Of a stretch of 32,243 nt of DNA, positions 10,491 to 32,243 are shown piece after piece; within the stretch, counting starts at the first letter, position 1, and each line of letters starts with the position of its first letter. The notes beneath the pieces were generated by a model that saw nothing but the letters and a program-made list of their open reading frames with translations, made no database searches and was not told where the DNA came from. Location: assembly GCA_002256345.1 (NCBI GenBank), contig NKIY01000021.1:1-32243 (forward strand), read 5' to 3'. Position numbers and translations under genes: made by a program. The DNA is from Bradyrhizobiaceae bacterium PARB1 (GTDB lineage: Bacteria; Pseudomonadota; Alphaproteobacteria; Rhizobiales; Xanthobacteraceae).

Positions 10491-10749
10491 GAGCGTATTC
10501 CTTTCAAATACTACTATAATTTCCGGATCTATGAGGCCGAATTCGCCTCAGATCCTTTCCGCCAAATAGTAAACCAAAGTCTTTGCCGCGACGACGTGAC
10601 GCCTGAGCACCTTAGGCCGCGATCGGCGGCTTTCGGCGATTCGGCCGACGGCATGAGAGTGAGAGCGAGGCCGGGACGGATTTGAGCCTGTGCGGTCGAG
10701 AGAGAGCGCTGTGCGGCTCGATCCTGTCCCGCTCTCCCGAGGCTTTCCC
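10491..10749. other. Divergent intergenic region, leader of the methylase/helicase gene
   Basis: It contains an AT-rich part near 10500-10580 (promoter-like for the minus-strand gene) and a GC-rich part before the ATG at 10750. The latter has GGGAC...GTCCC around a GAGAGAGAGCGC core, which recalls the type-2 leaders at 2768 and 6851 in layout but not closely in sequence. Confidence 0.35.
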
Positions 10750-12984: not shown

Positions 12985-13007
12985 TTATGGGCAGCTGCCC
13001 ATAATGC
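12982..13007. repeat. Diverged RIT-type end with 20-bp palindrome
   Basis: It starts exactly where the helicase gene is cut. Against the RIT end at 15642-15667, in the same orientation, it matches 18 of 26 positions with no gap (hand count), including an unbroken CATAATGC. Positions 12985-13004 form a perfect palindrome (TTATGGGCAG/CTGCCCATAA). It may be the true left end of the first insertion, or the relic of another RIT-like element. Confidence 0.45.
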
Positions 13008-13011
13008 AGAG

Positions 13012-13090
13012 CGTTTTTAGCTTGGCGTCGCGCAGGAATGCAGGTGGCGAGAGTGCGCTACGGTGGGTCGCGACGGTTAGCTAAAAACGT
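13012..13090. repeat. 79-bp imperfect inverted repeat
   Basis: CGTTTTTAGCT at 13012-13022 is repeated inverted as AGCTAAAAACG near 13079-13089. Pairing continues inward through a GTCGCG/CGCGAC segment with a few mismatches. It fills the gap between the diverged RIT-type end and the IS91-like element. It could be a small non-autonomous element or part of the IS91 replication-origin end. Confidence 0.4.
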
Positions 13091-13372
13091 GTTGGACTAA
13101 GCCGCCGGCACAGGGTGGCTGCTATGGGCGTTTAATCGAGGCCTTACCCATAAACAGGCGTGGCGTGGGTGCGGGCGTTGTCGTGAACGCGATTGCAGGG
13201 GTCGCGCGAGCCGACGGCGGCACGGAAATCGGTTGCGGCAAGGTGCGGACCGGCGTCGCGCTCTGCCGGGAGGGGCCGGAGGGCACGACGGCGCGCATTT
13301 TCGCGGGGCCGGCTCGGTTTCTTCTGCCGAACGGCCCGTGCCTGCGGTGGCGACGAAAGCGGGGCGCTTCTT

Positions 13373-14575: not shown

Positions 14576-14583
14576 CGCGCCGC

Positions 14584-15465
14584 TCAGAAGTATTGCGGTT
14601 TGGCGGGCGGCGGCAGGATCGGTGCCGGACGCGGCAAAAGCTCGAACGGGCTCGACGTGGCGCAGACCTTGTTGGTGGCAATCCTCAGGTAATGGGCGGT
14701 GGTCGCGAGACCCCTGTGACCGAGCAGCAGTTGAATGGTGCGCACGTCGGCACCAGCCTCCAGCAAATGGACGGCAAAGGCGTGCCGCAAGCTGTGCGGC
14801 GTGACCGGTTTGGACAATCCGGAAAGGTCGTGCGCTTTCGCGCAGGCTTGTCCCACCGCATCCCTGGTGATCGGCTGGCCGGCACGATCGCCGGGGAAGA
14901 GCCACCCCTGTGGCCGGCACATCTTCCAATAGTTGCGCAGGATCTCCAGGAGCTTGGGCGACAGCATCACGTAGCGGTCCTTCTGGCCTTTGCCCTGCTC
15001 GACGCGGATGACCATTCTCAGGCTGTCGATGCCCGTGGGCTTCAGCTGTACCGCTTCCGAGATGCGCAAGCCGGCGGCATAGCACGTGGTCAGGATGGCA
15101 TGGTGTTTGACGTTGAGAACGCAGCCGAGGAACTGCTGGACTTCCTCAGGACTGAGTATGATCGGCAGCTTCTGCGGCTTCTTGGGTAGCGGGAGGACCT
15201 CTTCAGGCACCCAGTCCCTCGCGAGTGTCACAGTGTAGAGAAAGCGCAGCGCCGCAATGGCGGTATGGATCGAGCCGGGCGCCAGCTTCTTCTCGTTGAC
15301 CAGATAGACCTGATAGGTCCGAATGTCCTCGCGCCCGAGCAATTCCGGCGATTTACAGAAGTAGCGAGCGAATAGCGACACCTGTTGCAGATACGAGAGC
15401 TGGGTGTTGAGCGCGAGGTTGCGTACCTGCATGTCCTCGCTCATGCGCTGGCGAAGTCGGGTCAT
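14584..15465 (-). CDS. IS91-associated tyrosine recombinase
   Basis: 293 residues, with a core-binding N-terminal domain (about 10-95, including ARYFCKSPELLGREDIRTYQ) and a catalytic domain with the Arg in AAGLRISEAVQL, HSLRHAFAVHLLEAG, LLGHRGLATTAHY and the nucleophilic Tyr at the end of that motif. The full R-H-R-H-Y set is visible. The ATG at 15465 has AAAGGAGGAG a few bases upstream, a very strong site. The transposase follows without a gap, so the pair is one operon. The role in IS91-type transposition is not established; it may resolve intermediates. Confidence 0.85.
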   Translation of the reverse strand: MTRLRQRMSEDMQVRNLALNTQLSYLQQVSLFARYFCKSPELLGREDIRTYQVYLVNEKKLAPGSIHTAIAALRFLYTVTLARDWVPEEVLPLPKKPQKLPIILSPEEVQQFLGCVLNVKHHAILTTCYAAGLRISEAVQLKPTGIDSLRMVIRVEQGKGQKDRYVMLSPKLLEILRNYWKMCRPQGWLFPGDRAGQPITRDAVGQACAKAHDLSGLSKPVTPHSLRHAFAVHLLEAGADVRTIQLLLGHRGLATTAHYLRIATNKVCATSSPFELLPRPAPILPPPAKPQYF

Positions 15466-15643
15466 GACAAACTCCTCCTTTGTCTGATGGAATAGGCTGC
15501 AAGCAGCCGCTCCATTCTCGCGCAGTTGGAGATCTATTTACACGCATGACCGGCGCCCGAGGCGACGACGCCGTCAAGACCGCGCCGTCGGCGAAGGCCC
15601 TGTTTGCCGCTCCGCGACTGCGGAGCGGGTTAGTCCAAGATGC

Positions 15644-15673
15644 CTAATCGCGAGGTGGGCATAATGCGAAGGA
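15644..15673 (+). repeat. RIT left inverted repeat
   Basis: 30 bp starting CTAATCGCGAGGTGGGCATA. It is a perfect inverse of 19439-19468. Confidence 0.9.
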
Positions 15674-15744
15674 ACGCGACACGATCACGATCATTCGCGG
15701 ATTTGAGGGCCACGTCCTTCACATTATTTCTCCTTTGCATGAGT

Positions 15745-16749
15745 TTAGAGAGTGTCGAGCCAGGCGAGCAGGCTGGCATCTCGTTTCCAGGATGGTGGGC
15801 GATTGCTCGCTGCCGGAACTCCGACCTTTTCCAGAGCCTTTCGCTTGGTTTCGAGATTGGCCTGGGCATAGTGGTTAGTCGTGTCGAGGCTGACGTGACC
15901 AAGCCAGCTGCGGATGACGGTGATGTCAACTCCCGCCGAGACGAGGTGAACAGCGGTCGCGTGCCGGAAGCTGTGCGGCGTCACATGCTTCGAACGAAGC
16001 GTGGGCGTCGTTTTCGCGGCCGCCTCGACGTAAGCTGCCAGCTTGAACCGCACGCCCGACGCCCCCAGTGGTTCGCCGTATCGGTTGACGAAGATGCGCT
16101 CATCCGGTGCGCGCGGCTGCCCCTCAAGCAGCTTTTTCAACAACGAGATGGTTTCCGGCCAGAGGGGGCAGATGCGTTCCTTTCGACCCTTTCCATAAAG
16201 ACGTGCGCTATACGGTGCTTCGAACCGGATCGCCTCGGGACACAAATCGAGCGCCTCCTGAATGCGCGCGCCACTATTATAGAGAAGCGACAACAGCACA
16301 TGGTCTCGCACCCCCTCGATCGTCGAACGGTCGGGCTGTGCGAGGATGGCCTCGACCTCCTCTGGCTCAAGATAGCAAGGTGCAGCGGTGGGTTTGCGCT
16401 TGAGCGGGATCGCGAGGACCTCAGCACATTGGGCGACATATTCGGGGTCCTTGTCTGCCACGAAGCTGAAGAAGCTGCGGATCGCGGCAAGCCGACAGTT
16501 GCGCGTACCGATCGTGCCCTTGCGTCCATGTTCCGCATGAGTAAGGAACGCGCGCACCTCGCCGGCGGAGACATCGGCCAGGGTGATCTGTGCGACACCG
16601 CCGCCGTTTCGTTCCGCGACGAACCGGAGAAGCAGCCGCCAGGTGTCCCGATAGGACTTGATGGTATGGATCGAGGCGCTGCGCTGTTCGGCCAGCCATT
16701 CCTGGAAGAACGCCCGCAACAATGCGGGGAACGGATTGACCGTTTTCAT
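15745..16749 (-). CDS. ritC: RIT tyrosine recombinase, third gene
   Basis: 334 residues. The N-terminal core-binding domain is seen in FFQEWLAEQRSASIHTIKSY. The catalytic residues are the Arg in NSGARIQEALDL, the HSFRHATAVHLVSAG box, WLGHVSLDTTNHY and the Tyr that ends it. All are present. Its ATG overlaps the stop of the second gene (ATGA at 16746-16749), which fixes the start. In RIT elements the three recombinases are always kept together and are thought to act as a set. Confidence 0.85.
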   Translation of the reverse strand: MKTVNPFPALLRAFFQEWLAEQRSASIHTIKSYRDTWRLLLRFVAERNGGGVAQITLADVSAGEVRAFLTHAEHGRKGTIGTRNCRLAAIRSFFSFVADKDPEYVAQCAEVLAIPLKRKPTAAPCYLEPEEVEAILAQPDRSTIEGVRDHVLLSLLYNSGARIQEALDLCPEAIRFEAPYSARLYGKGRKERICPLWPETISLLKKLLEGQPRAPDERIFVNRYGEPLGASGVRFKLAAYVEAAAKTTPTLRSKHVTPHSFRHATAVHLVSAGVDITVIRSWLGHVSLDTTNHYAQANLETKRKALEKVGVPAASNRPPSWKRDASLLAWLDTL

Positions 16750-18101
16750 GACAGCGCCTCCCCATTGAGGCAGGGCGCGCCGACAACGCGGAACCGCTCA
16801 CTGGCTTCCTGCAGCAGATCCTGCGTGACGGTGATATAGACCAGCGTGGAGTTGATGTCCCGGTGGCCCATATAGGTTGAGAGGAAGCGCAGCCTGTCTT
16901 GTGGGTCAATGCCGGCCCGGTACCATTCGAGGATCCGGTTCACGACCATCGAGTGTCGCAGGTCATGCACACGCGGCCCTGTCCGTCCGGACCGAGGTTT
17001 GAGCCTGGCGCGACGCATGACCTTGGTGATCATCGTTGAGATCACTATTGGGGTGTAACGATCATCGAGATGGTCGTGCCAGAATAATCCCGACTGAGGA
17101 TCTTGCGGCGCGCCGGCGCGCCGCCTCGCATCGAGATAGGCGCGAAGTTCGGCCATGACGCTGTCGGATTGCGGCAGGATCCTGGTCTTGTAGAACTTCG
17201 TTTCCCGGACCGTGATCGTGCCGGATTGAAGGTCGACGTCACCCAGATCGAGCCAAGCAAGCTCACCACGCCGCAGCCCCGCGCAATAGGCCAGAAGGAT
17301 CATGGTATAGAGGCTCAACGGCCGCAGGGGAGCATGCGGCGACGGGTATGTGCGGGCAACATCAAGCATCCGCCGGATGTCGGTCGGGCTGAAGATATGT
17401 GGCCGTCGATGCTGTCGCGCCACCTCCCGCTCCGGCCGCGGATTGAAGCGTTTCGGCGGGATGTTCGGATCGAGGCGGTACCGCGCCTTGGTCAGGATAC
17501 GCCCCAGCTTCTGGCATTCCGCGGCGTGATTGCGAGTAGGCTTGGCGACCGCCCAGCGAGCCAACATCGTCTCGAGCTGTTCACCAGCCAGCTCTGGATG
17601 CCCTTGAAGAAAGCGGTCGAACCGCAGCAACCAGTGAGCCTGTGTTTCGTACTGATACCCCCGGCTGCGCATCAACATGACATGGTCGCGCATGAAGTCG
17701 CCCAGAACGCTGCCGAAGGGTGCTGGCCGGTGTAGACCAGCGAGAGCCATATCGGGGTTGGGGGACGCGAGAGCCCGCCAGATTGACTTGTTCTGTTTGA
17801 CATTGTGCTGACTGCGGAGCACGGCGACGGGGTTGTTGGCGATCAACCCCATATCGACGAGATAGTCGAGGAAGCGATCAACTATGCAGACCTGGTTCAA
17901 CAGCGACGGCAATTGCCAACGCTTTTCCATTTCGTTCAGCCACGCCTCGAGCATCTGGCGGTCGACTATCTGGTGACGGCGGGCAACATCGTCAAAGCTG
18001 TGAAGGATGCAACGATAAGTGCGGCAGCTTCTCTGCCGGAACTGGGATGCTTGCAGAAAGTCAGCGACAATAGTGCGATCGGGATCGGGCCAGGCGCTCA
18101 T
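16746..18101 (-). CDS. ritB: RIT tyrosine recombinase, second gene
   Basis: 451 residues, longer than its partners because of an extended N-terminal region (about 1-150) with DFLQASQFRQRSCRTYR. Catalytic motifs are the Arg in YCAGLRRGELAWLDL, HDLRHSMVVNRILEW, YMGHRDINSTLVY and the final Tyr. All are present. It overlaps both neighbours by four bases (ATGA), so translation of the trio should be coupled; a stop in the first gene could therefore reduce its expression. The start is set by the overlap. Confidence 0.85.
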   Translation of the reverse strand: MSAWPDPDRTIVADFLQASQFRQRSCRTYRCILHSFDDVARRHQIVDRQMLEAWLNEMEKRWQLPSLLNQVCIVDRFLDYLVDMGLIANNPVAVLRSQHNVKQNKSIWRALASPNPDMALAGLHRPAPFGSVLGDFMRDHVMLMRSRGYQYETQAHWLLRFDRFLQGHPELAGEQLETMLARWAVAKPTRNHAAECQKLGRILTKARYRLDPNIPPKRFNPRPEREVARQHRRPHIFSPTDIRRMLDVARTYPSPHAPLRPLSLYTMILLAYCAGLRRGELAWLDLGDVDLQSGTITVRETKFYKTRILPQSDSVMAELRAYLDARRRAGAPQDPQSGLFWHDHLDDRYTPIVISTMITKVMRRARLKPRSGRTGPRVHDLRHSMVVNRILEWYRAGIDPQDRLRFLSTYMGHRDINSTLVYITVTQDLLQEASERFRVVGAPCLNGEALS

Positions 18102-19327
18102 GACAGCACCTCCGATCCGGGCACGTCGAGCGCCACTGCCCGAAGATCCTCGGTGGCAAGTTTGAGATAGGCGTTCGTGGACTCGGTCGACCGGTGCCCA
18201 AGCACGTCGCCGATTATCTTTTGCGGAACCGACGCACGCAGCAGTTCGACCGCCCGAGCGTGCCGGAAGACATGCGGCCCTCGTTTCCCTGGCGGTGTGA
18301 CATCTGCGGCTGACAGCCTCCGCTGCACCATGCCGTATAGATTCGTCATAAAGGTATAGGGCGCGCAGGACCGGACGAAGATTTCCCGCAATTCAACCTG
18401 CGGACGCCCGAGGCGCAGATAGTCGAGCAGTGCCTCCCCGACCGGCGTCAGGAGCGGCATGTAAGAACAGGAGTTGGTCTTGGTATGACGGATGCGGAAC
18501 GATTCCGCGCGCCAGTCGATGTCCTCGAGCTGGAGTTTGCAGACTTCACTTTCGCGCAGCCCATAGGTAGCGAGTAATTGCAATATCGTGTAATCGCGCA
18601 GCCCCCTCGGCGAGCTGTCCTTCCTCGTCACCTCCAAAACCGCCGCGATCTGCTTACTGTCCAGGGTCGATGGAACACCCTCGTAGGTATAGAGCATGGG
18701 GCCAATGACGTGTGGGGCCAGATCGGTCGGAATTCGCCCCGTTCTATGGAGATAGCGCAGCAGCGAGCGGAGCCGTGCGGCAACGCTCGCGAGCGATATT
18801 CGGCGCAGGCCAGCGGTTCGCATGTCCATGTAGAGATCGATGTCTCGGACGCTCAATGACGCGAGACCGACGGCCCTACCGCGACCGAGCTGCCATTCCA
18901 GAAAGTGCCGCGCCTCCCTCATAAACGCGTCGATAGTAGTATCTGCAAGACCGCGTTCTTCGTGCAATCAAGTCTCGTATTCGTGGCAGATTGCATGCCG
19001 GGGCATCGCATCCGGCCCGATTTCGGCGACAGGCGGCCATTCCCCCTGTGCAAGCCGCAGCAACTTGCAGACCGCCGTGTGCGGGAGCTTATGCCAACGC
19101 GGGCTGGGAGATCGGCCATAGCGCACACGAAAGCGCTGAACCGCATGGCAAAAATACTGCTCGACCTGCAACGGCGTTACCGTCGCCACGGGCATGTCGC
19201 GTTCAGCCAGATAGTCCAGAAAGGCGCGGGCGTAGAGCCGGTGGTTGGCCACGACCACCGGATTGTAGTTCTGCTTCGTGAGCAATTTTGCGAGCTCGGC
19301 GATCAGCTCGTCGTGCGACTTCGACAT
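18098..19327 (-). pseudogene. ritA: RIT tyrosine recombinase, first gene, with in-frame TGA
   Basis: The frame runs from ATG 19327 (GAGGAG 6-7 nt upstream) to 18098 but holds a TGA at 18968-18970. Without it the protein would be 409 residues. Both sides belong to one protein: before the stop CRHAICHEYET-like residues end the N-terminal part, and directly after it LHEERGLADTTIDAFM begins the core-binding domain. The catalytic part is intact: TYGLRESEVCKL, HVFRHARAVELLRAS, VLGHRSTESTNAY. A TGG-to-TGA change (Trp to stop) is the simplest cause. The codon straight after is TTG, which could restart a 289-residue protein with the whole catalytic domain. Confidence 0.75.
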
Positions 19328-19438
19328 GATTGTCTCCTCAGACGGTTGGAAGGCCGCCGAAGTTGGCAATCAAAATAATGCGCAGCAAGGACCGCGCTGA
19401 TACGCAGAAATCAAGGAAATTCAACATGAATCCCAGAC

Positions 19439-19468
19439 TCCTTCGCATTATGCCCACCTCGCGATTAG
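19439..19468 (-). repeat. RIT right inverted repeat
   Basis: Perfect 30-bp inverse of 15644-15673. The helicase reading frame resumes directly after it. Confidence 0.9.
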
Positions 19469-21588
19469 CCATCATCCATAACAATCTGGACGCGGCGATG
19501 CAGGCCGCCAACATCACCGGTGGCGGCGAAGGCGGATCGGGCACCCTCAACAAGCAGGCGAAATCCGCCGCCCGCTCGGCCTTCGAGAGCGCCAAGCAGC
19601 GCTTCTTCGGCCATCTGCTGACCAGCATGAAGACGCCGACCCTGCTTCGCTCGATCGCCGCCGATCTGGAGGCGGGCCATTCGGCCGTCATCCAGATCGT
19701 CTCGACCGGCGAGGCGCTGATGGAGCGGCGTCTGGCCGAACTGCCGACCGAGGAGTGGAACGACATCCGCGTCGACATCACGCCGCGCGAATACGTTCTC
19801 GACTATCTTGCCCATTCCTTCCCGGTCCAGCTCTACGAGCCGTTCACGGATTCGGAGGGCAATCTGTCGTCGCGTCCGGTCTACCGCGACGGCCAGCCGG
19901 TCGAAAGCCGCGAGGCCGTCGCGCGCCGCGATGCACTGATCGCAAAGCTCGCCAGCCTGCCTCCCGTTCCCGGAGCGCTCGACCAGCTCGTCCAGCATTT
20001 CGGGACGGATATGGTCGCCGAGGTGACGGGCCGGTCGCGCCGCATCGTCCGCAAGCGCGGCGGCGGCGTCACCATCGACCGGCTTGTGGTCGAGACGCGC
20101 GCCGGGGCCGCCAACCTCGCCGAGACGCAAGCCTTCATGGACGACCAGAAGCGTGTGCTCGTCTTCTCGGACGCCGGCGGCACCGGCCGCAGCTATCATG
20201 CGGAGAAGTCGGCGAAGAACACGCGGCTGCGCGTCCACTATCTGCTCGAGGCGGGCTGGAAAGCCGACACCGCCATTCAGGGTCTCGGCCGGACGCACCG
20301 CACCAACCAGGCGCAGCCGCCGCTCTTCCGGCCGATCTCGACCAATGTGAAGGCGGAGAAGCGCTTTCTCAGCACCATCGCCCGCCGCCTCGATACGCTG
20401 GGCGCGATCACCCGCGGCCAGCGCCAGACCGGTGGCCAAGGGCTGTTCCGCCCCGAGGACAATCTGGAAAGCCATTACGCCCGCGACGCGCTCCGTCAGC
20501 TCTACATGCTGCTGGTGCGCGGCAAGGTCGAGGGATGCTCGCTCGACCGTTTCGAGTCCGCCACCGGCCTGAAGCTGATGGACTCGACCGGCATCAAGGA
20601 CGAGCTACCGCCGATCACGACGTTTCTCAACAGGTTGCTCGCGCTCACCATCGAGCTTCAGGGCATCCTCTTCACGGCCTTCGAGCAGCTCCTGACCGCC
20701 CGCATCGAGGGCGCGATCGCCTCGGGCACCTATGACGCCGGGCTGGAGACGCTGAGCGCGGAGAGCTTCGTCGTCGTCGATCGCCAGACGATCTACACCC
20801 ATCCGCGTACCGGCGCCGAAACCAGCCTGCTCACCATCAACGAGCGCAAGCGCAACCGTCCGGTGACGCTCGAAGCCGCTCTCGCCGAGCTCGATGATCC
20901 GCGCGCAAAGCTGCTCGTCAACGAGCGTTCCGGCCGCGCCGCCGTTCAGATCCCGGCCAGCAGCATCATGCTCGACGATGGCGAGATCGAGCGCCGCGTC
21001 CGGCTGATCCGGCCGACCGAGGCCCACAACATCCCGGTGCGCTTCATGGGCGAGACCCATTGGGTCGAAACTGACGGGGAGACCTTTGCGTCAGCCTGGA
21101 AGGCCGAGATCGCCGACGTGCCGGAGTTCACGGACGCCACGCTCCACATGGTAACAGGCTTGCTCCTTCCGATCTGGAAGCGGCTTCCGAACGACTCGAC
21201 GCGCGTCTACCGGCTTCAGACCGACGACGGCGAGCGCATCATCGGCCGCAAGGTCTCGCCGGCCTGGGCCGCGAATGCGACCACGACCGGCGCTGCCGCG
21301 ATCACGCCGGACGATGCCTTCACCGCTCTGATGGACGGCCGCACCATCCTCGGTCTCACTGAGGGACTTCAGCTTCGCCGCGTCCGCGTCATGGGCGCCA
21401 ACCGCATCGAGCTGTCGGGCTTCGACGACACGATGCGCGAGCGCCTCACGGCCTACGGCCTGTTCCACGAGATCATCTCGTGGAAGCTGCGCATGTTCGT
21501 GCCGGTCGATGCCAATGGCTCGGCGGTTCTCGGCAAGCTGCTCGACCGCTGGCCGGTCGAGCGCATCGGCGAGAAGGAGGCCGCGTGA
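19469..21588 (+). pseudogene. Strawberry-notch helicase, 3' part (interrupted)
   Basis: Continuation of the gene starting at 10750, in the same frame when the intervening 6,489 bp (12982-19470, divisible by three) are removed. It resumes with IIHNNLDAAMQAANIT, which follows AYAGAFA naturally. It holds the second helicase lobe, with VLVFSDAGGTGRSYHAEKS and the arginine-finger-like motif IQGLGRTHRTNQAQ (about 250-270 residues in), then the conserved SBNO C-terminal region. An ATG at 19450 lies in the RIT inverted repeat and could start a fusion peptide, but no ribosome-binding site is clear. The stop overlaps the Toprim gene's start (TGATG at 21586-21590). Confidence 0.85.
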
Positions 21589-25193: not shown

Positions 25194-25598
25194 ATGCAGA
25201 ACATCGTCATTCTCGCCGGCAACATCGGTCAGGCCCCCGAAACCCGCACCACCCAGGGCGGCACCCGGATCACCCACTTCACGCTGGCCACCTCGCGCCC
25301 CCGCTATTCGGACGGCAAGGTCGTCCGGGACGAGAAGGGCTACCGGGTCCAGGACACCGAATGGCACCGGATCACCGCCTTCAACGGCCTCGGCAAGACG
25401 ATCCAGGACTATTGCGAGAAAGGTATGAAGGTTCTGGTTCGCGGCCGCATCCACTACTCGAAGTGGACCGACCAGGAGGGCAACGACCGCTACGGATGCG
25501 AGATTATCGCCGAGACGGTCGATTTCCTCAGCCGGGCGAAGCAGACCGAGAACGAGGACCGCGGACAGACCGACTACGACGACGACATCCCGTTCTGA
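25194..25598 (+). CDS. ssb: Single-stranded DNA-binding protein
   Basis: 134 residues, a compact plasmid-type SSB. The OB-fold is visible in IVILAGNIGQAPETR, THFTLATSRP, DTEWHRITAFNGLGKTIQDY and KVLVRGRIHYSKWTDQEG. The acidic C-terminal tip DYDDDIPF, which binds partner proteins such as primase and exonuclease, is present. It should form tetramers that coat ssDNA in replication, repair or conjugative transfer. The long Gly/Gln-rich linker of chromosomal SSBs is nearly absent. The start is ATG 25194, with CGGAG about 8 nt upstream. A strong terminator follows. Confidence 0.95.
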   Translation: MQNIVILAGNIGQAPETRTTQGGTRITHFTLATSRPRYSDGKVVRDEKGYRVQDTEWHRITAFNGLGKTIQDYCEKGMKVLVRGRIHYSKWTDQEGNDRYGCEIIAETVDFLSRAKQTENEDRGQTDYDDDIPF

Positions 25599-25643: not shown

Positions 25644-25809
25644 ATGCTCGCGGCGGATCGCGGTTGCGCCGGGCTTTCCTGCCGTCGCGCATCGGTCGCT
25701 GAACGCGGTTGCAGCGTTGTGCCCAACCGTCTTTCTCTCAATGAGAAGCCGATCATACCGGCAGTCGGGCCGCGTCAAGGACGCCCGGTGCCCCCATGTG
25801 TGGACGGCC

Positions 25810-26051
25810 CGTGGAATGCAAGACTATGTTTCTGGCAGCGACCAATCAGGTTCAGTCATGTGTCCGGCCTATATGCGCAGCGTCGGTGCTGCTGGCCCTG
25901 ATGAAGTCCGCGGACGGAGAGCCAATCAATTTTGCGCGCTCAAAGCGCTGGGGGCACCCAGGCTTCACTCCATCCCCGGCCTAACCGGTTCGCCATCACA
26001 ACTCAGTCCTTCATTCCCCCGCCCGACCGGTGATGGCCGAACGGGATTCCC
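25810..26051 (-). other. Non-coding end of IS110-type element
   Basis: About 240 nt between the transposase stop and the left inverted repeat. In the IS1111 subgroup the long non-coding end lies downstream of the transposase and carries the bridge RNA. I expect that here but cannot pick out the loops by eye. Confidence 0.35.
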
Positions 26052-27074
26052 TCAGGCCGTTGCCGGCCGATACACTTCCTCCCGTCTGAGAATAGCCCAC
26101 GCAATGCGCGCGGTTTTGTTGGCGATCGCCACGGACACCAGCCTTGCAGGTCTGCGATCCAGCAACCGTGCGATCCACGGAAATGAAGATGCGTCGAGGC
26201 GGGCTCGCCGAACAACCGCAGTCGCTCCGACCACCAGCAATCGCCTGATGGTTCGATCTCCCTGCTTGCTGATCCGGCCGAGCCGTTCTTTCCCGCCACT
26301 GCTGTTCTGTCGTGGCGTCAGACCGAGCCAGGCCGCGAATTGCCGTGCGGATCTGAATTCCGCAGCATCCCCGACCGAAGCGGCGATAGCCGCCGCCGTC
26401 AGTGAACCTACGCCAGGGATGGTCATCAAGCGACGGGCGGCCGCGTCGCTCCTGCACCAAGCAATGATAGTGCGATCCAACTCGGCAATCTTCTGACTGA
26501 GTTCTTGTAGTTGGTTTCGAATGTGTTCCAGCGCCTGCACTGCTGGCGCGGGTAGCTCATCTCTTGCCGCATGCAGCGCTTCGAGCGCGGTCTTCACGCC
26601 CATCGCTCCTTGCGGAGCAATGATGCCAAATTCCGCGAGGTGGCCACGGAGAGCGTTGATGAGCGCAGTTCGGTGACGAACGAGTAGATCTCGCGTCTTG
26701 TGTTGCATTAGCAGTGCTTGCCGCTCGCAGCTCTTGATCGGCACGAAACGCATCGTAGGGCGTGTGACCGCTTCGCAGATCGCCTCGGCGTCTGCAGCAT
26801 CGTTCTTCCCGCGTTTGACATAGGGCTTCACATACACTGGCGGCATCAGCTTGACCTCGAAGCCCAACTTGCCGAGTTCTCGCGCCCAGAAATGAGAAGT
26901 CGAGCAGGCTTCCATACCGACTAGGCAACGCGGGATCTGTTCAAAGAATTGCAGCAACTGATTTCGGCGGAGCTGGCGGCGAGCAACGACACACCCAGTG
27001 TCATCAACAGCATGTACCTGAAAAACGTTCTTGGCCAGATCAAGACCAACGACAGCGATATTCTCTAAAGACAT
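26052..27074 (-). CDS. IS110-family transposase
   Basis: 340 residues. The N-terminal DEDD nuclease domain shows Asp in VVGLDLAKNVFQVHAVD (about 10), Glu in CLVGMEAC (about 53), and the Asp pair in KRGKNDAADAEAICEA (about 90). The C-terminal Transposase_20 domain begins at LMTIPGVGSLTAAAIAASVG, with the conserved Ser region FAAWLGLTPRQNSSGGKERL. All are intact, so it may be active. IS110-group transposases work with a bridge RNA made from a non-coding end of the element; the stretch 25810-26051 downstream of the gene or the short 27075-27136 stretch upstream would hold it. Confidence 0.9.
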   Translation of the reverse strand: MSLENIAVVGLDLAKNVFQVHAVDDTGCVVARRQLRRNQLLQFFEQIPRCLVGMEACSTSHFWARELGKLGFEVKLMPPVYVKPYVKRGKNDAADAEAICEAVTRPTMRFVPIKSCERQALLMQHKTRDLLVRHRTALINALRGHLAEFGIIAPQGAMGVKTALEALHAARDELPAPAVQALEHIRNQLQELSQKIAELDRTIIAWCRSDAAARRLMTIPGVGSLTAAAIAASVGDAAEFRSARQFAAWLGLTPRQNSSGGKERLGRISKQGDRTIRRLLVVGATAVVRRARLDASSFPWIARLLDRRPARLVSVAIANKTARIAWAILRREEVYRPATA

Positions 27075-27285
27075 GGTGCGGTTCCTTTGAATTGCTGGAG
27101 CGCGGTGATCGTATCATCTCGCGCTGCGGTCCCGGAGGGCCGTCCACACCATCAATTTTGCCGCCGCTGCACGACGACAAAATCGGCTCCCCCAGACGCC
27201 GGAGTCTCCGGTCGCTTCGCGATCCCTGACCCGTCCCTCCAACGCCCGGACAATCGCCTCCGTCATCGAGACAAAGGAGGTTCAC

Positions 27286-27444
27286 ATGACACAGGTTCTC
27301 GACATCTACGCCGAAATCGCCGAGCTGCGCGCCGAGCTCGACCACTGCATCCTCACCCGCAAGGAGCGCGCCGAGACGCTGCGACGCCTCGAAGCCGCGC
27401 GTGCGGAGGCCGAGCGCCGGGAGCGGGCGAGGGAGGGAGCGTAA
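27286..27444 (+). CDS. Small coiled-coil protein behind leader A
   Basis: 52 residues, almost entirely one charged helix: MTQVLDIYAEIAELRAEL, then RKERAETLRRLEAARAEAE. A coiled coil or a small regulatory or structural peptide is likely. The start has AAAGGAGG about 5 nt upstream, inside the leader's final stem. The TAA lies in the loop of the terminator hairpin. No family recognised. The IS110 element lies in its leader, so its expression is probably changed. Confidence 0.65.
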   Translation: MTQVLDIYAEIAELRAELDHCILTRKERAETLRRLEAARAEAERRERAREGA

Positions 27445-27458
27445 GCTCCCTCTTTTTT
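27433..27458 (+). terminator. Terminator with stop codon in the loop
   Basis: Perfect stem GAGGGAGC/GCTCCCTC with a GTAA loop that holds the stop codon, followed by six T. Confidence 0.85.
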
Positions 27459-27576
27459 GTCCGCGACGGCGGCCGCGGATCGCATGGGCGGGATCTCGGG
27501 CCGCCTCGCGGCCTTCACGAGAACTTCGGACGGAATCGCCACGCGCATGGGCGCGTTGCAATCCGACTTCCTTGTC
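27459..27576. other. Non-coding stretch after leader-A gene
   Basis: An open frame through here (MGGISGRLAAFTRTSDGIAT) has no ribosome-binding site and runs into the repeats, so I do not call it a gene. Nothing else recognised. Confidence 0.3.
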
Positions 27577-27629
27577 GGAGCATCGGATCGTTCCCAAAAA
27601 CCGGAAACCACTTTTTGGTCCGATGCTCC
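27577..27629. repeat. Long palindromic intergenic repeat
   Basis: Perfect 11-bp outer stem GGAGCATCGGA/TCCGATGCTCC and inner stem CCAAAAA/TTTTTGG around CCGGAAACCAC. Palindromes of this look (AAAACCG...CCACTTTT) are scattered in many rhizobial genomes, from memory. It sits where the other modules have a short GGTTCGACC-type hairpin. Confidence 0.6.
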
Positions 27630-27632
27630 TGT

Positions 27633-27741
27633 GATGAAGGGGGGCACGGCCGCCCCTCTCAAGCTCTCCCCATGAAGGAAGGGCAAAGCCCCTCCTTCAA
27701 ACATCCTCCCATGGAAGGGGGTGCCGCACCCCCTCCAAACC
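27633..27741 (+). repeat. Triple-hairpin module, copy 1
   Basis: Three consecutive hairpins, each opening with ATGAAGG or ATGGAAGG: a GGGGGGC type, a GAAGGAAGGGC/GCCCCTCCTTC type, and GGAAGGGGGTGC/GCACCCCCTCC (one bulge). It lies between the terminator of the previous gene and leader B. Confidence 0.65.
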
Positions 27742-27753
27742 TCCCCGGACCAT

Positions 27754-27989
27754 ACGGACGCGGCCCCTGGTCGGGGCCGCGGGCTATCTCTCTCTGACTG
27801 CGCATTCTACGCCAGCCCACCCGGCGTCAAGGACTGCGCGGCCCCTCCAATTTTCGGCTCCGTTCCTTGATAGGCCCGGATCAGAAAATCGGTTCCTCCG
27901 CTTGCCGCGCGGCGGCCGCTGGCGCGGTCCCTGACCCCCGCTGGGCTACAGCGTGGACACCTTTCGTCAGAAACGAAAGGAGACTTGAA
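27754..27989 (+). promoter_or_regulatory. Type-1 structured leader B
   Basis: 236 nt ending at the ATG at 27990. In order: 5' stem GCGGCCCC/GGGGCCGC; CTCTCTCTGAC; CCGGCGTCAAGGACTG; stem CCAATTTTC (27847-27855) with GAAAATCGG (27884-27892); hairpin CCGC-TGGC-GCGG; GGTCCCTGACCCC; then CCTTTCGT (27960-27967) with ACGAAAGG (27973-27980). The last stem contains the AAAGG of the ribosome-binding site. Confidence 0.75.
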
Positions 27990-28538
27990 ATGCCTAAGCT
28001 CGATTTCCTCGACCTCTTTGCGAAGTTCGATGCCTTCGGAAGTCTGGTGCGCGCGAACCGCGCAAAATGCGCGACGCGCTTCGCCGAAGTCGTCCACGAC
28101 CGGCTCGCCAATGCGCTCGACGACCTCGCCGGCTTTTGCCGGGAGGCTATGCGCATCGAACGGTTGTTGGAGACCGAGATCGATCCGGACGCACGCGACG
28201 CCCTGGACGAGACCCTTGGTCTTTGCATCGGCAACCTCGAAACCAGCGGTGGCGGCTTCTATCCGTGGCACTTGCTGGATAGCATCGATCCCCGCATGGA
28301 CTATGGCGGATACATCGATCCTGTCGCAGCCATGTGGTGCCCTGGTCCCGTCCCGGCGTGTTACACCGTCGACGACAAGCACCTGTGCGGTCTCGGTGCA
28401 ATCATCGCACGGATCGCGGCCGACACCGGCATCCGCTTCACCACCTATCTCTACTTTAAGAGCATCGGCCCGGACGGGGCAGCGGACCTCGACCCGGCGA
28501 TCTACGAAACCCCGATCGACAACCACAGATACCGATAG
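27990..28538 (+). CDS. Hypothetical protein behind leader B
   Basis: 182 residues starting MPKLDFLDLFAKFDAFGSLV. A helical N-terminal half (VVHDRLANALDDLAGFCREA) leads to a Gly/Pro-rich middle (GGGFYPWHLLDSIDPRMDYG) and a C-terminal LCGLGAIIARIAADTGIRF. It appears to be a distant paralogue of the 30637 product: both have VRANR near residue 20 and a late LCGLxxIxxxxAxxTG motif. No named family recognised. The start is fixed by the leader's AGGAG, 6-7 nt upstream. The gene ends before a 16-bp perfect hairpin. Confidence 0.7.
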   Translation: MPKLDFLDLFAKFDAFGSLVRANRAKCATRFAEVVHDRLANALDDLAGFCREAMRIERLLETEIDPDARDALDETLGLCIGNLETSGGGFYPWHLLDSIDPRMDYGGYIDPVAAMWCPGPVPACYTVDDKHLCGLGAIIARIAADTGIRFTTYLYFKSIGPDGAADLDPAIYETPIDNHRYR

Positions 28539-28544
28539 CGCCGG

Positions 28545-28580
28545 AGAGGCGGCGGGCGGCTGCGGCCGCCCGCCGCCTCT
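28545..28580 (+). terminator. Strong hairpin after leader-B gene
   Basis: Perfect 16-bp stem (AGAGGCGGCGGGCGGC and inverse) with a TGCG loop. There is no T-run. It starts 6 nt after the stop codon. Confidence 0.6.
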
Positions 28581-28629
28581 GCCGTGTACGGCCAGCAAAG
28601 TCGAGCGGATCGACCGCTCGCCCTTGCTC

Positions 28630-28736
28630 ATGAAGGGGGGCGAGCCGCCCCTCTCAATCTCTCCCCATGAAGGAAGGGCGAAGCCCCTCCTTCAAACTTC
28701 CTCCATGGAAGGGGGTGTCACACCCCCTTCCAAACC
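28630..28736 (+). repeat. Triple-hairpin module, copy 2
   Basis: Same layout as copy 1. The third stem GGAAGGGGGTG/CACCCCCTTCC is perfect. A GAGCGGATCGACCGCTC hairpin precedes it at about 28604-28620. Confidence 0.7.
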
Positions 28737-28753
28737 ATCCCCATTCCTATTCG

Positions 28754-28987
28754 GACACGGCGTCTGGTCGACGCCGCGGTGCTCCTCTCTCTCTGACTTC
28801 CCAGTGTACGCCAGCCCATCCGGCGTCAAGGACAGCGCGGCCCCTCCAATTTTCAGCTCCGACCCGATGGGCCGAACCAGAAAATCGGTTCCTCCGCTTG
28901 CCGCTCGGCGGCCGCGTTCCGCGGTCCCTGACCCCCTCTGGGCTACAGCGTGGACACCTTTCGTCAGAAACGAAAAGGAGATTTTCC
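28754..28987 (+). promoter_or_regulatory. Type-1 structured leader C
   Basis: 234 nt ending at the ATG at 28988. 5' stem CGGCGTC/GACGCCG (28758-28776), pyrimidine tract, GGCGTCAAGGACAG, stem CCAATTTTC (28846-28854) with GAAAATCGG (28880-28888), hairpin CCGCG-TTC-CGCGG, GGTCCCTGACCCC, and CCTTTCGT with ACGAAAAGG (one bulged A) over the ribosome-binding site. It is very close to leader E. Confidence 0.75.
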
Positions 28988-29037
28988 ATGACTGCGATTG
29001 AAAACAACAACGTCGATGCGACTAGAGCGTTTTCCGG

Positions 29038-29679
29038 TCATTCTGGGTCATATCCCGCGGCTTTGAAGAAGTTGGCGCATTCGGCTGATGAGAAGAGCGG
29101 GATGATGTCTGCGATCCTGCTCCAGAGACTGTCGCGCGTTCGCTCTGCGGCCTTGCGCAGCAGGGCTTTGAGCTTCGAGAAGGCGTTCTCGATCGGGTTA
29201 AAGTCGGGGCTGTAGGGCGGCAGGTAGAGCAGGCTCGCCCCTGCGGCCTCGATCGCCGCGCGCACGCCGGCGCCCTTGTGGGAGCCGAGATTGTCCATGA
29301 TGACGATGTCGCCGGGCTTCAGCTCCGGCACGAGCACCTGATCGACATAGGCCTGGAAGGCTGCACCATTGATCGGCCCGTCCAGCACCATGGGCGCGAC
29401 CATGCCAGCAAGCCGCAGGCCGGCCACGAAGGTCGTCGTCCGCCAATGGCCGTGCGGCACGCCCGAGCGCAGTCTCTCGCCGCGAGCACTGCGGCCGTAG
29501 CGCCGGGCCATGTTGGTCGAGGCCCAGGTCTCATCGATGAAGACGAGGCGCTGCGGATCGAGATCGGGCTGGCTCTCGAACCAGTCCCGGCGCCGCTTCA
29601 GGATGTCGGGGCGTTCCTGCTCCGCCGCGTGCGCGGTCTTTTTTTCCAAGTGAGCCCATGGCGGGCGAAGAAGCGCCAT
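29038..29679 (-). CDS. IS630 transposase, frame B (DDE catalytic part)
   Basis: Frame B holds the catalytic triad: Asp in [11 protein letters not shown], Asp in [13 protein letters not shown], and Glu in [16 protein letters not shown]. It begins in frame-A overlap and is most likely made as a fusion with frame A by -1 frameshifting on the A7 run; the fused transposase would be about 315 residues. The annotated first Met (29679) lies in the overlap and has no clear ribosome-binding site. All catalytic residues are intact. Confidence 0.85.
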
Positions 29680-29984
29680 AGCGTGCCGATGCCGAAGCGA
29701 TGTCCCCGCTCGGCCAGATGCGCCTGCAACTCGGCCAGCGTGATGTCGTCGCGCTCATCGACCAGGGCAAGGATCTGCTCCCTCTGCGCCTCGATCCGCG
29801 CCGAGTGCCGGTCCCCGCCGCGCGGCTTCGCAGCCGGACTGCCCATCTGATTGTCGCGAGCGCACCAGCGGATCGCGCTCGATACGCTCACCCCGAAGCG
29901 CTCCGCAGCCTGGCGCCGCGACATCCCGCCTGAAACCGCTACAGCGACCCGTTCGCGAAGATCCAGAGACAAGCTGCGAGCCAT
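29598..29984 (-). CDS. IS630 transposase, frame A (DNA-binding part)
   Basis: 128 residues. The N-terminal helix-turn-helix is [20 protein letters not shown], then [20 protein letters not shown] second winged-helix-like part follows ([16 protein letters not shown]). The frame ends shortly after [10 protein letters not shown] run of seven A in the mRNA (29645-29639) at TGG-AAA-AAA-AGA is a candidate -1 slippage site into frame B. Both frames overlap there (29598-29679). Confidence 0.85.
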
Positions 29985-30334
29985 GCCTGCCGGCCTCCGA
30001 TCCGGCAGACAGTTTGAATCAGAACACGCGCCTCTTGGGAATCCTCAACGATTCAACTCGACCGGAAAACGCTCTAGCGAGGACCATCAAGGACCGCGCG
30101 AACCCTTCGATGGCGAAATCCATCTGCCCGCCACGATCTCCAAGGAGTTCCTGTCGACCGCCCTGCTTTGGGCTATTGAGAACAAGGTGGAGTTCGGCGT
30201 GTTCCACGAGCCGGACACGATCGTCATCGCGCATTTCTTCGGCGACGAGCAATTCCTGCCTTCGCGCCGGACCGACAAGCGCTGGCAAATCGGCTTGGAG
30301 GACCGGTTGCCGGACGACGACTATTAACGCTTCG

Positions 30335-30362
30335 ATCGGAGGCGGCATCTGCCGCCTCCGAT
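30335..30362 (+). terminator. Intrinsic terminator after leader-C gene
   Basis: Perfect 13-bp stem ATCGGAGGCGGCA/TGCCGCCTCCGAT, followed by TTTCGG, 8 nt after the TAA. Confidence 0.7.
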
Positions 30363-30401
30363 TTCGGCTTCGGCGGCGCAGACCCGGCTTGCCGCCGGAT
30401 A

Positions 30402-30636
30402 CGGACACGGCCCCTGGACGGGGCCGTGGGTACTCCTCTCTCTGCCGTCCGATCGTGGCACCGCCTCTCCGGCGTCAAGGACATCGCGGTCCCCCAATTT
30501 TCGGCCTCCGCCCGAAGAGGGCGTCGTCAGAAAATCGGCTCCCCCGCTCGCCGCCGCTGGCGGTCGCGTCGCGATCCCTGACCCCTCGATGCTGCGGTGC
30601 GGCCTCCTTCCGTCAGAGAGACGAAAGGAGAACTTC
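30402..30636 (+). promoter_or_regulatory. Type-1 structured leader D
   Basis: 235 nt ending at the ATG at 30637. 5' stem CACGGCCCC/GGGGCCGTG (30406-30428), CTCCTCTCTCTGCC, CGGCGTCAAGGACATC, stem CCAATTTTC (30494-30502) with GAAAATCGG (30530-30538), hairpin CCGCTGGCGG, GCGATCCCTGACCCC, and CCTTCCGTC (30606-30614) with GACGAAAGG (30620-30628). No triple-hairpin module precedes this copy. Confidence 0.75.
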
Positions 30637-31182
30637 ATGACTTGGGACCAAGCCCTCATGCTGATGGTGAAGCTGTCCGGCTTCAAGCTCATAGTCCGGG
30701 CCAACCGGTTCGGATGCGATACGGATCTCGCGCGCGAGGCGCACGATATTCTGATCGCCCATCTCGACGAGTTCCGCGAGGACCTCGACCGGGTTATCGC
30801 CCTATGGAAAGAATTGCTTGCCGAGCGGGACCCCGACAAGGCCGACGATGCAGCCTACGACCTGCGCGATCTGCGCATCCGGGTCGAGCACTTCTGGCTC
30901 CACAATCACCATCCGTACAATGTCGGCGGATGGCGTCACGCCGACGATGCGGGCACTTATCGCATCGCCGACGAGTGTGACTATGAGCTGTTCGGAGCGC
31001 ACCACTGGGTGCGCGACCTCACGGACAACGAACTGTGCGGCCTGCGACCGATCCTCGACCAGCTCGCCGAGGAAACCGGGCTGAACATCCCGGCCGTCGT
31101 CATCTACTACCGGCCCGATCCCGGCCGACCTGCAGCGCGGCCGATGACGCCATTTGATCCCGATGCGCCAATCCCTTGGTGA
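30637..31182 (+). CDS. Hypothetical protein behind leader D
   Basis: 181 residues starting MTWDQALMLMVKLSGFKLIV. Helical N-terminal half (AREAHDILIAHLDEFREDLD; RVEHFWLHNHHPYNVGG) and a C-terminal motif LCGLRPILDQLAEETGLNIP. It is a likely distant paralogue of the 27990 product. The cluster of His and aromatic residues (FWLHNHHPYN; AHHWV) could bind metal, but that is speculation. The start has GAAAGGAG 7 nt upstream. No named family recognised. Confidence 0.7.
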   Translation: MTWDQALMLMVKLSGFKLIVRANRFGCDTDLAREAHDILIAHLDEFREDLDRVIALWKELLAERDPDKADDAAYDLRDLRIRVEHFWLHNHHPYNVGGWRHADDAGTYRIADECDYELFGAHHWVRDLTDNELCGLRPILDQLAEETGLNIPAVVIYYRPDPGRPAARPMTPFDPDAPIPW

Positions 31183-31192
31183 CGGTATCCGG

Positions 31193-31224
31193 GAAGGTGG
31201 TTGCGGCCACCTTCGCATTCTTTT
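31193..31224 (+). terminator. Intrinsic terminator after leader-D gene
   Basis: Stem GAAGGTGG/CCACCTTC with a TTGCGG loop, followed by GCATTCTTTT. Confidence 0.65.
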
Positions 31225-31292
31225 CGACCGCAGTGTTTGCCGGGGGGGACGTAGCGTAGGATCTCCGACCGGATCGACCGGCCGGATGCCCT

Positions 31293-31400
31293 ATGAAAGG
31301 GGGGCAAGCCGCCCCTCTCAATCTCTCCCCATGAAGGAAGGGCGAAGCCCCTCCTTCAAACATCCTCCCATGGAAGGGGGTGTCCCACCCCCTTCCAAAC
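31293..31400 (+). repeat. Triple-hairpin module, copy 3
   Basis: Near copy of 28630-28736. The third stem GGAAGGGGGTG/CACCCCCTTCC is perfect. A short CCGGATCGACCGG-type hairpin precedes it at about 31269. Confidence 0.7.
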
Positions 31401-31417
31401 CATCCCCATTCCTATTT

Positions 31418-31651
31418 GGACACGGCGTCTGGTCGACGCCGTGACTACTCCTCTTTCTCTGACTTCCCAGTGTACGCCAGCCCATCCGGCGTCAAGGACA
31501 GCGCGGCCCCTCCAATTTTCAGCTCCGACCCGATGGGCCGAACCAGAAAATCGGTTCCTCCGCTTGCCGCACGGCGGCCGCTAAAGCGGTCCCTGACCCC
31601 TCTGGGCAACAGCGTGGACACCTTTCGTCAGAGACGAAAAGGAGATTTTCC
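31418..31651 (+). promoter_or_regulatory. Type-1 structured leader E
   Basis: 234 nt ending at the ATG at 31652. 5' stem CACGGCGTC/GACGCCGTG (31421-31443), CTTTCTCTGAC, GGCGTCAAGGACAG, stem CCAATTTTC (31512-31520) with GAAAATCGG (31546-31554), hairpin CCGC-TAAA-GCGG, GGTCCCTGACCCC, and CCTTTCGTC with GACGAAAAGG (one bulge) at 31621-31642. Confidence 0.75.
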
Positions 31652-32026
31652 ATGACACATCGCAAGATCATCACCATCGATGGCGGCAGCGCGGAATATT
31701 GGAGGCAGCGAACGGAGGGCTTTCGCCTTATCCACGAGGCGGAGCGGGCTCTCGAACGATTGAAGGACGCGCCGATGTACCTTCACGGCGGCTACGACGA
31801 GGACGGAGACGTCATCGCCATCGAGAACCTCGGGCCGTATGACGACATGGAGGATGCGATCCGGGCGATCGAGGCGAACGAGACTGCGGTTAGCATCCTC
31901 GTCGCGCAGGGCCGCACCAAGATCGGCGACTACGAGATCAGGGCGGTGGTCCGCGAGTTGGCACCCGACGACGGAGACATCGAGGACCCCGCGAGCAACC
32001 CGCTCTGGGGTCCCGACGCCGATTAA
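31652..32026 (+). CDS. Hypothetical acidic protein behind leader E
   Basis: 124 residues starting MTHRKIITIDGGSAEYWRQR. A helical middle (LIHEAERALERLKDAPMYL) is followed by an acidic stretch (YDEDGDVIAIENLGPYDDME), a further helix AIRAIEANETAVSILVAQG, and an acidic tail. No family recognised. It is unrelated to the other leader-linked genes, except for similar size and charge. The start has AAAGGAG about 8 nt upstream, inside the leader's last stem. Confidence 0.7.
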   Translation: MTHRKIITIDGGSAEYWRQRTEGFRLIHEAERALERLKDAPMYLHGGYDEDGDVIAIENLGPYDDMEDAIRAIEANETAVSILVAQGRTKIGDYEIRAVVRELAPDDGDIEDPASNPLWGPDAD

Positions 32027-32067: not shown

Positions 32068-32115
32068 CTCTGTGCCGGGAGCCAGGGCAGCCGGTTCGAC
32101 CGGCTGTCCTGGCTT

Positions 32116-32243
32116 ATGAAAGAGGGGCGAGCCCCCCTCTCAATCTCTCCCCATAAAGGAAGGGCAAAGCCCCTCCTTCAAACATCCTCCCATGGGGAAA
32201 GGGGACGGTTCCCTCCTCCCTTTCCCCAAACCCCTTTCCCTCT
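32116..32243 (+). repeat. Triple-hairpin module, copy 4 (reaches window end)
   Basis: The first two hairpins resemble the other copies. The third has a different sequence, GGGGAAAGGG/CCCTTTCCCC, but still pairs perfectly over 10 bp (32194-32227). The position suggests that another leader and gene follow beyond the window. Confidence 0.65.

Follow-up and report, generated by a model that had tools for sequence, protein, structure and literature searches.

The window analysed here is a stretch of 32,243 nucleotides (nt) of Bradyrhizobiaceae bacterium PARB1 (contig NKIY01000021.1 of assembly GCA_002256345.1, positions 1 to 32,243, forward strand). It holds five related elements of about 230 nt, named copies A to E, each of which precedes one small gene; copies B to E are intact, and copy A is split. 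A first-pass annotation of this DNA had described them as a five-copy structured family (25704-25797 plus 27149-27285; 27754-27989; 28754-28987; 30402-30636; 31418-31651), and direct repeats, alignment and a covariance model showed both the repeats and these coordinates to be real. The features of the five copies that are used below are as follows.

Copy A, 25752-27285, minus strand: -10-like TATGAT at 25752-25757, TTGAC at 25774-25778, IS110-family insertion at 25798-27149, partner GTCAGGGA at 27223-27230.
Copy B, 27804-27989, minus strand: -10-like TAGAAT at 27804-27809, TTGAC at 27826-27830, A/T arm at 27848-27892, partner at 27928-27935.
Copy C, 28803-28987, minus strand: -10-like TACACT at 28803-28808, TTGAC at 28825-28829, A/T arm at 28847-28888, partner at 28925-28932.
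Copy D, 30452-30636, minus strand: weak -10-like CACGAT at 30452-30457, TTGAC at 30474-30478, A/T arm at 30495-30538, partner at 30575-30582.
Copy E, 31469-31651, minus strand: -10-like TACACT at 31469-31474, TTGAC at 31491-31495, A/T arm at 31513-31554, partner at 31590-31597.

Copies B, C, D and E are linked by the direct-repeat families D2 to D6, and their alignment has a mean column identity of 83%. A covariance model of the element core, the check proposed in the first-pass annotation, was trained on 18 sequences including the four intact copies and was searched without filters. It recovered all five places in the window with E values below 1e-6, all on the minus strand, and the sixth-best match had an E value of 0.009. 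The intact copies, all four of them members of the training set, were matched at 27823-27937, 28822-28934, 30471-30584 and 31488-31599 (E 1.5e-20 to 1.7e-19), and the right half of copy A was matched at 27126-27232 (E 4.8e-8). No further element in the window, for example before ssb, was convincing in this search. The insertion in copy A belongs to the IS110 family, as judged by a transposase match, and its ends form a perfect 13-nt inverted repeat (25798-25810 and 27137-27149); the same type of hairpin folds when the flanks of copy A are rejoined in silico.

Two insertion sequences (IS) disrupt the array: one of the IS110 family sits in the copy A hairpin, and one of the DDE_3 (IS630-like) type sits in the gene behind copy C. 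Insertions of the IS110 family were also seen at 16696-17658 of an Ancylobacter stretch (L062), about 0.5 kb from an element, and at 13297-14385 of a Gluconacetobacter plasmid (L193), farther from its element. A second repeat of about 106 nt with GC-rich palindromes (27634-27739, 28629-28734, 31293-31398 and 32115-32220) lies directly upstream of copies B, C and E and at the contig end, where its presence suggests a sixth element beyond position 32243.

In the fold, GTCAAGGAC and CCCTGAC lie opposite each other in a single long, imperfect hairpin. Some 100 nt separate GTCAAGGAC from its pairing partner GTCCCTGAC; this pairing encloses the CCGC hairpins and the ATTTT/AAAAT stem as side arms, and outer arms extend toward the start codon, such as AGCCCA with TGGGCT in copy C. 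The sequences GTCAAGGAC and CCCTGACC, initially taken for separate boxes, are both strands of one long-range stem in this fold. The minimum free energy structure differs somewhat among the copies. On the plasmid pTiC58, both stem sides are replaced together, with GTCCAGCAC facing TGCTGGAC where the window has GTCAAGGAC and its partner, and other relatives show additional paired replacements in the stem.

Covariation was assessed in three alignments: A2, a sequence-only alignment of 18 sequences; A3, with 77 distinct rows; and A4, with 92. Two-sided changes were found in 17 of 38 pairs in A2, with 91.3% of the cells paired and none of 500 shuffles as high, and in 28 of 37 pairs in both A3 and A4 (93.0% and 92.9% of cells paired, respectively). 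Sliding the partners by 1 to 3 columns lowered the pairing to 36 to 50% in all three alignments alike. These compensatory changes confirm that the stems are kept while the sequences change.

The fold had been assigned to the mRNA strand, that is, to structured leaders in which a plus-strand transcript holds the whole element and regulates translation as a riboswitch, an attenuator or the target of a trans-acting RNA. A conserved paired structure ahead of small genes would suit such leaders, a small hairpin overlaps the Shine-Dalgarno sequence in several copies, and the plus strand, too, is somewhat more stable when folded than shuffled versions of it (median z score -2.55, RNA parameters). Yet z scores and wobble counts support the fold best on the minus (template) strand, which by the orientation of relatives described below corresponds to the transferred (T) strand in conjugation, and the plus strand folds less well. 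For copy C, the z score was -5.3 for the minus strand as DNA and -2.5 for the plus strand as RNA. The statistics on folds and promoters used 49 elements retained of 98 at a 90% identity cut, with the split copy A excluded; the T strand gave the more stable fold of the two strands in 48 of the 49 with DNA parameters (median z score -4.46, versus -2.08 for its complement) and in 49 of 49 with RNA parameters.

The wobble pairs point to the same strand. In A3, 194 cells of the minus strand are G·T and 30 are A·C, 14 of the latter at one weak pair, and G·T exceeds A·C in 70 rows, falls below it in 2 and equals it in 5; the counts in A2 are 40 and 10. The three commonest G·T pairs, which turn into A·C mismatches on the RNA strand, lie in the A/T arm (A3 columns 64-114; 68 of 76 lettered rows), in the TTGAC stem (columns 7-142; 31 of 75 lettered rows) and at columns 54-133 (30 of 77 rows). 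Since the G·T cells of the minus strand would become A·C mismatches on an RNA, we assigned the structure to the minus strand.

Within the stem of the minus strand lies TTGAC, followed mostly 15 to 17 nt on by a TAnnAT-like hexamer; on the folded hairpin the two are oriented into the gene. The TTGAC arm is there the non-template strand, and the opposite arm, which is continuous with the gene, is the template. Across the 49 elements, the match of the -10 hexamer to TATAAT averaged 3.98 of 6 positions versus 2.37 after shuffling (highest of 2000, 2.86); 46 elements have A as the second base and 48 have T as the sixth. At the matching place on the plus strand, reading toward the gene, no -10-like hexamer was found (mean 1.47 by the same measure), which speaks against RNA leaders. 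A wider set of 88 of 203 elements (85% cut, copy A excluded, 2 more too near the locus end) gave 3.69 versus 2.32 (highest of 1000, 2.59), with A at position 2 in 83 of 88 and T at position 6 in 82 of 88, and TTGAC was matched at 4 or more of its 5 positions in 83 of the 88. The spacing was 15 to 17 nt in 47 of the 49 elements (15 nt in 24) and in 72 of the 88 (15 nt in 28, 17 nt in 30), with 18 to 19 nt in 16 of the 88. The duplex of the spacer arm with its own 5' arm reached -16.9 kcal/mol, and swapping arms among copies gave -12.1 kcal/mol (200 permutations, best -12.7). A TCAGAGAGAGA-like purine tract was seen 3' of the -10 hexamer on the T strand in many copies; its sense positions in the window are approximately 27783-27799, 28787-28799, 30436-30447 and 31453-31465.

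The distance to the gene is nearly constant: in 85 of the 88 elements, the core is followed after a median of 55 nt (10 to 90% range, 50 to 66) by an ATG open reading frame (ORF) that has a Shine-Dalgarno-like 4-mer.

The elements of relatives also have a fixed place and polarity with respect to the origin of transfer (oriT) and the relaxase. A scan of 140 element-bearing loci for a nic-like motif, defined by the RSF1010 nic arrangement as given in PMC4814116, found 8 sites; all 8 belong to the strand that folds, the elements lie 3' of nic, and the nearest element is 1.3 to 5.1 kb away. On pTiC58 (L008), an element lies 4.8 kb from the nic-like site between traC and traA and reads toward that site. 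The order at this site, inverted repeat - TAATTGCG/CCCT, is like that of RSF1010, inverted repeat - TAAGTGCG/CCCT (PMC4814116, Table 1), so that the transferred strand runs nic, traC, traD, traG, element, and the template strand of the element is the one transferred.

A relaxase match was present in 23 of 36 element-bearing genome contigs, and in all 23 the relaxase is downstream on the strand of the gene. The distance between element and relaxase was 1.2 to 9.1 kb in 30 of 32 cases and 26 to 28 kb in the other two, both on one contig (G220:C779). Further element-relaxase pairs, from 13 loci that partly overlap the other sets, agreed in 15 of 16 cases, and loci with several matches, some of them overlapping, kept a single orientation in 44 of 44. 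All annotated plasmids with a named relaxase agree (L008, L062, L064, L068, L070, L191, L192 and L193), the agreement of L193 being weaker because it is a small circle. L065 and L067 are typed MOBP, with no relaxase named in their annotation, and in the unannotated L066 the relaxase was located by tblastn and its orientation agrees. No relaxase is in view in the annotated stretches L001, L003, L009, L063 and L069, and none was found on the window's own contig, which ends at 32243.

We interpret the elements as Frpo-like single-stranded DNA promoters of a conjugative plasmid leading region, a reading to which we give a probability of about 0.85. Frpo of plasmid F is described as a T-strand hairpin that rebuilds the -35 and -10 boxes, lies in the leading region before leading genes and is active only until the second strand is made (PMC9849209; PMC11541004). 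The elements have a T-strand fold with -35 and -10 in or at its stem, a leading-region place in relatives and a position directly before leading-region genes. Our reading builds on features computed here, namely the fold with its covariation and strand, the hexamers, the way the elements of relatives are placed and oriented with respect to oriT and relaxase, and the nearly fixed distance to an ATG.

In the proposed mechanism, the minus strand would enter the recipient 5' end first as the T strand during mating. While it is single-stranded, each element would form a long, imperfectly paired hairpin that has side arms inside it; one arm of the main stem would present TTGAC and, mostly 15 to 17 nt on, TAnnAT as the non-template strand, while the other arm, running into the gene, would be the template. 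RNA polymerase would then use the hairpin to transcribe the adjoining gene, possibly with the A/T-rich arm as an UP element, and a short 5' untranslated region would carry the Shine-Dalgarno sequence. Expression would be early and transient because the hairpin would disappear once the complementary strand is made. The start predicted for copy C is around 28960-28968. Transcripts of this kind would begin downstream of most of the hairpin, an outcome that the first-pass annotation itself had named as counting against RNA leaders.

Compared with such promoters, RNA leaders appear very unlikely. They do not account for a location tied to oriT and relaxase, and none of the 4227 families of Rfam 15 matched at its gathering score, the 10 weak matches (E 0.06 or more) all staying below it; the earlier remark that no named RNA family has this layout thus holds. 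The Rfam result, the folding of both strands and the strand of the wobbles led us to reject RNA leaders as the main explanation. Wobbles, fold energies, minus-strand hexamers and the placement in conjugative leading regions point to a single-stranded DNA promoter instead; they support neither the proposal that it is the RNA that is conserved nor that of a riboregulator acting with a ligand or a trans-acting partner.

Even a little less probable is a hairpin whose main task on the T strand is to start synthesis of the complementary strand in the recipient, as a primer RNA or primosome site, with gene expression secondary. A priming site would occupy the same strand and place and is compatible with single-stranded promoters, and the title of the 1997 Frpo paper of Masai and Arai on plasmid F reportedly names transcription and primer RNA synthesis together. 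A plasmid carries several copies, though, and an ATG with a Shine-Dalgarno-like site follows at nearly the same distance each time (85 of 88); we favour gene promoters since this copy number and distance are needed by promoters only. The least probable of the three, an ordinary double-stranded promoter reading away from the gene (antisense or divergent) with an incidental hairpin, would fit TTGAC-15/17-TAnnAT as a normal sigma-70 layout on the minus strand, but it leaves the copy-specific arm complementarity, the two-sided changes, the narrow plus-strand distance to the ATG and the placement near oriT unexplained.

Similar elements are widespread on plasmids. Copy C matches 494 of 72,556 plasmid records, typed in PLSDB as conjugative (355), non-mobilizable (109) or mobilizable (30); a sphingomonad element matches 208 records and an Acetobacter element 421, in overlapping sets, and the element-bearing plasmids are typed MOBQ, MOBP or MOBF. 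Elements occur on pTiC58, pRL7, a Sinorhizobium meliloti megaplasmid, pNL1 and pSWIT01, and one 23-kb stretch (L001) holds seven copies. Genome samples of the family and of the order gave matches in 11 of 198 (E 1e-5) and 15 of 397 genomes (E 1e-6), with the source genome counted in both. A pattern scan of a collection of 84,980 species found at least 120 stretches; the 80 loci among the matches listed were, by record title, 35 from Rhizobiales, 32 from Sphingomonadales, 8 from Acetobacteraceae, 2 from Paracoccus and 3 from unplaced metagenome-assembled genomes (MAGs). The model matched 78 of these 80 at E 0.001 or better, the exceptions being L125 and L129. L125, a contig of a Bryobacterales MAG that fits the scan pattern and not the model, is a chance match or a case of mis-binning.

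Several points weigh against single-stranded promoters. The spacing between TTGAC and the -10 hexamer is not uniform and is often below the usual 17 nt, and some copies have poor hexamers (CACGAT in copy D, CTGGAC/CACCCT on pTiC58, TGGCAG in L025). In double-stranded DNA, the same hexamers would point away from the gene, and antisense transcripts may arise. Neither the GC-rich hairpin upstream of copies B to E nor the TCAGAGAGAGA tract has a role in the model. Part of the difference in strand stability reflects base composition, since shuffled T strands fold better too (-36.2 versus -30.8). The rows of A3 and A4 were fitted by model alignment, which biases both toward the model, and the pattern used to select the A4 loci already prescribes part of the A/T arm. 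The Shine-Dalgarno test was lenient and had no shuffled control. As for polarity, the nic scan covered the RSF1010-like (MOBQ) motif only, the relaxase match of 2 of the 23 contigs falls short of the Pfam cut-off, and the pair that disagrees among the 16, in L078, is a fragment of a helicase-like ORF. The orientation sets overlap, several contigs are near-identical, and the T strand of the window is deduced from relatives because its own contig is without a relaxase. Finally, PLSDB lists 109 of the 494 matches as non-mobilizable.

The genes behind the elements and the gene directly before copy A are as follows.

ORF behind copy A, 27286-27444, plus strand: 52 amino acids, coiled-coil-like by eye.
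ORF behind copy B, 27990-28538, plus strand: 182 amino acids, no Pfam match, homologous to the ORF behind copy D.
ORF behind copy C, 28988-30327, plus strand: broken by an IS with a DDE_3 transposase at about 29022-30076 (ends by eye).
ORF behind copy D, 30637-31182, plus strand: 181 amino acids, no Pfam match.
ORF behind copy E, 31652-32026, plus strand: 124 amino acids, without a Pfam match; 43 of the 72,556 plasmid records hold similar DNA.
SSB gene, 25200-25598, plus strand: directly before copy A, PF00436 match with E 1.1e-27, start estimated from the domain match.

These are mostly different small genes, as had been noted, except that copies B and D precede genes for homologous products (28% identity, E 5e-8). 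Across the family, the 85 downstream products fall into 17 clusters, of which the four largest have 32, 21, 11 and 7 members and 12 are singletons, one of which is the IS-broken ORF behind copy C. Nothing above the cut-off in Pfam or NCBIfam was found for the downstream products tried, including the 52-amino-acid product behind copy A. The largest cluster (32 of 85 ORFs) comprises a protein of about 55 amino acids that is coiled-coil-like by eye, such as WP_162936979.1 of pTiC58 (L008, 29261-29428); the member scanned had no Pfam or NCBIfam match above the cut-off. By eye, the 52-amino-acid product behind copy A seemed a plausible member of this family, but it does not match the pTiC58 member (E 0.30), and the kinship was dropped.

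Genes for single-stranded DNA-binding proteins are usual in leading regions. Upstream of the elements, the window encodes a ParB-like protein (below the Pfam cut-off), a strawberry-notch helicase and toprim/DUF7146 and YAcAr (SLOG) proteins, a gene company that resembles the surroundings of elements on other alphaproteobacterial plasmids. At 10690-21588, the methyltransferase/strawberry-notch helicase gene is split by an IS91-type transposase gene and two tyrosine recombinase genes; it is unsplit on related plasmids. At least one of ardC-type, ssb, DUF736, HU or WGR genes lies near the elements on annotated plasmids, and two annotated element-bearing stretches have none of these named. By analogy with this company (ArdC, SSB, DUF736) and with the work of Samuel et al., the mostly unknown products may serve in anti-defence or establishment.

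The elements are like Frpo1 and Frpo2 as described by Couturier et al. (2023; PMC9849209) in being T-strand hairpins with -35 and -10 boxes ahead of leading genes. F has two copies, with Frpo2 before ssb (PMC9849209), and several copies occur here too. The computed fold of the F region before ssb, the one plasmid region folded, has an A/T-rich hairpin as the elements do, and its -35 and -10 could not be convincingly placed by eye. Unlike Frpo, the elements have extra GC-rich side arms in a multibranch hairpin, occur in alphaproteobacteria, are spread over three relaxase classes and reach seven copies in one 23-kb stretch (L001). Model R1 had no match in the F leading region (50,000-69,000) at E values up to 10, so that no homology to Frpo in sequence or structure was found there. 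The best reading is that the elements would work like Frpo without detectable kinship.

The single-stranded promoter (ssi) of ColIb-P9 reportedly depends on secondary structure for its activity, judging by the titles of Bates (1999) and Nasim (2004). It is linked to the leading-region genes ssb, psiB and ardA and is likened to the elements here by description, not by sequence; its function has been reported, whereas that of the elements is deduced. In the texts consulted, the documented single-stranded promoters are those of F and ColIb-P9 in Escherichia coli, with candidates in other elements from Samuel et al. (PMC11541004), who sought folded -35/-10/UP hairpins before leading-region ORFs. 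Their approach, as described there, was BLAST with known sequences, and new candidates came from a few example islands and were then sought elsewhere by BLAST. The main text of that paper has no words beginning with 'Rhizobi', 'Agrobacterium' or 'Alphaproteobacteria'. Among the best-ranked papers of a literature search, with subscription journals and supplements outside its scope, no report of such promoters in alphaproteobacteria was found; Frpo combined with Rhizobium returned a primer name, and with Alphaproteobacteria nothing.

For RP4, the excerpted text of PMC7314908 reports strong zygotic induction and no single-stranded promoter. EGeRS1 of Bacillus plasmid pLS20 comprises five copies of one long conserved region with inverted repeats, each before an establishment operon, one of them with ardC (PMC8708921). 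Its authors judged a single-stranded promoter highly unlikely, as the fold contained no promoter and it is the non-template strand that is transferred (PMC8708921). Both of these tests come out the opposite way here, and an establishment sequence of the EGeRS1 type was rejected for our elements since the transferred strand is the template (8 of 8 nic-like sites).

The elements probably constitute a separate, alphaproteobacteria-wide family of multi-arm single-stranded DNA promoters, unrelated to Frpo in sequence, that would run an early-expression programme when Ti, symbiotic and degradative plasmids enter a cell, across MOBQ, MOBP and MOBF. A family with so marked a signature on pTiC58, pRL7, the S. 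meliloti megaplasmid, pNL1 and pSWIT01 would add large plasmids of plant-associated and environmental alphaproteobacteria to those that use this mechanism. Model R1 would be a practical probe that predicts T-strand polarity and leading regions, and it points to unknown small genes that would be expressed first on entry and are candidates for roles in establishment or anti-defence. If this is true, each copy marks an uncharacterised small establishment or anti-defence gene.

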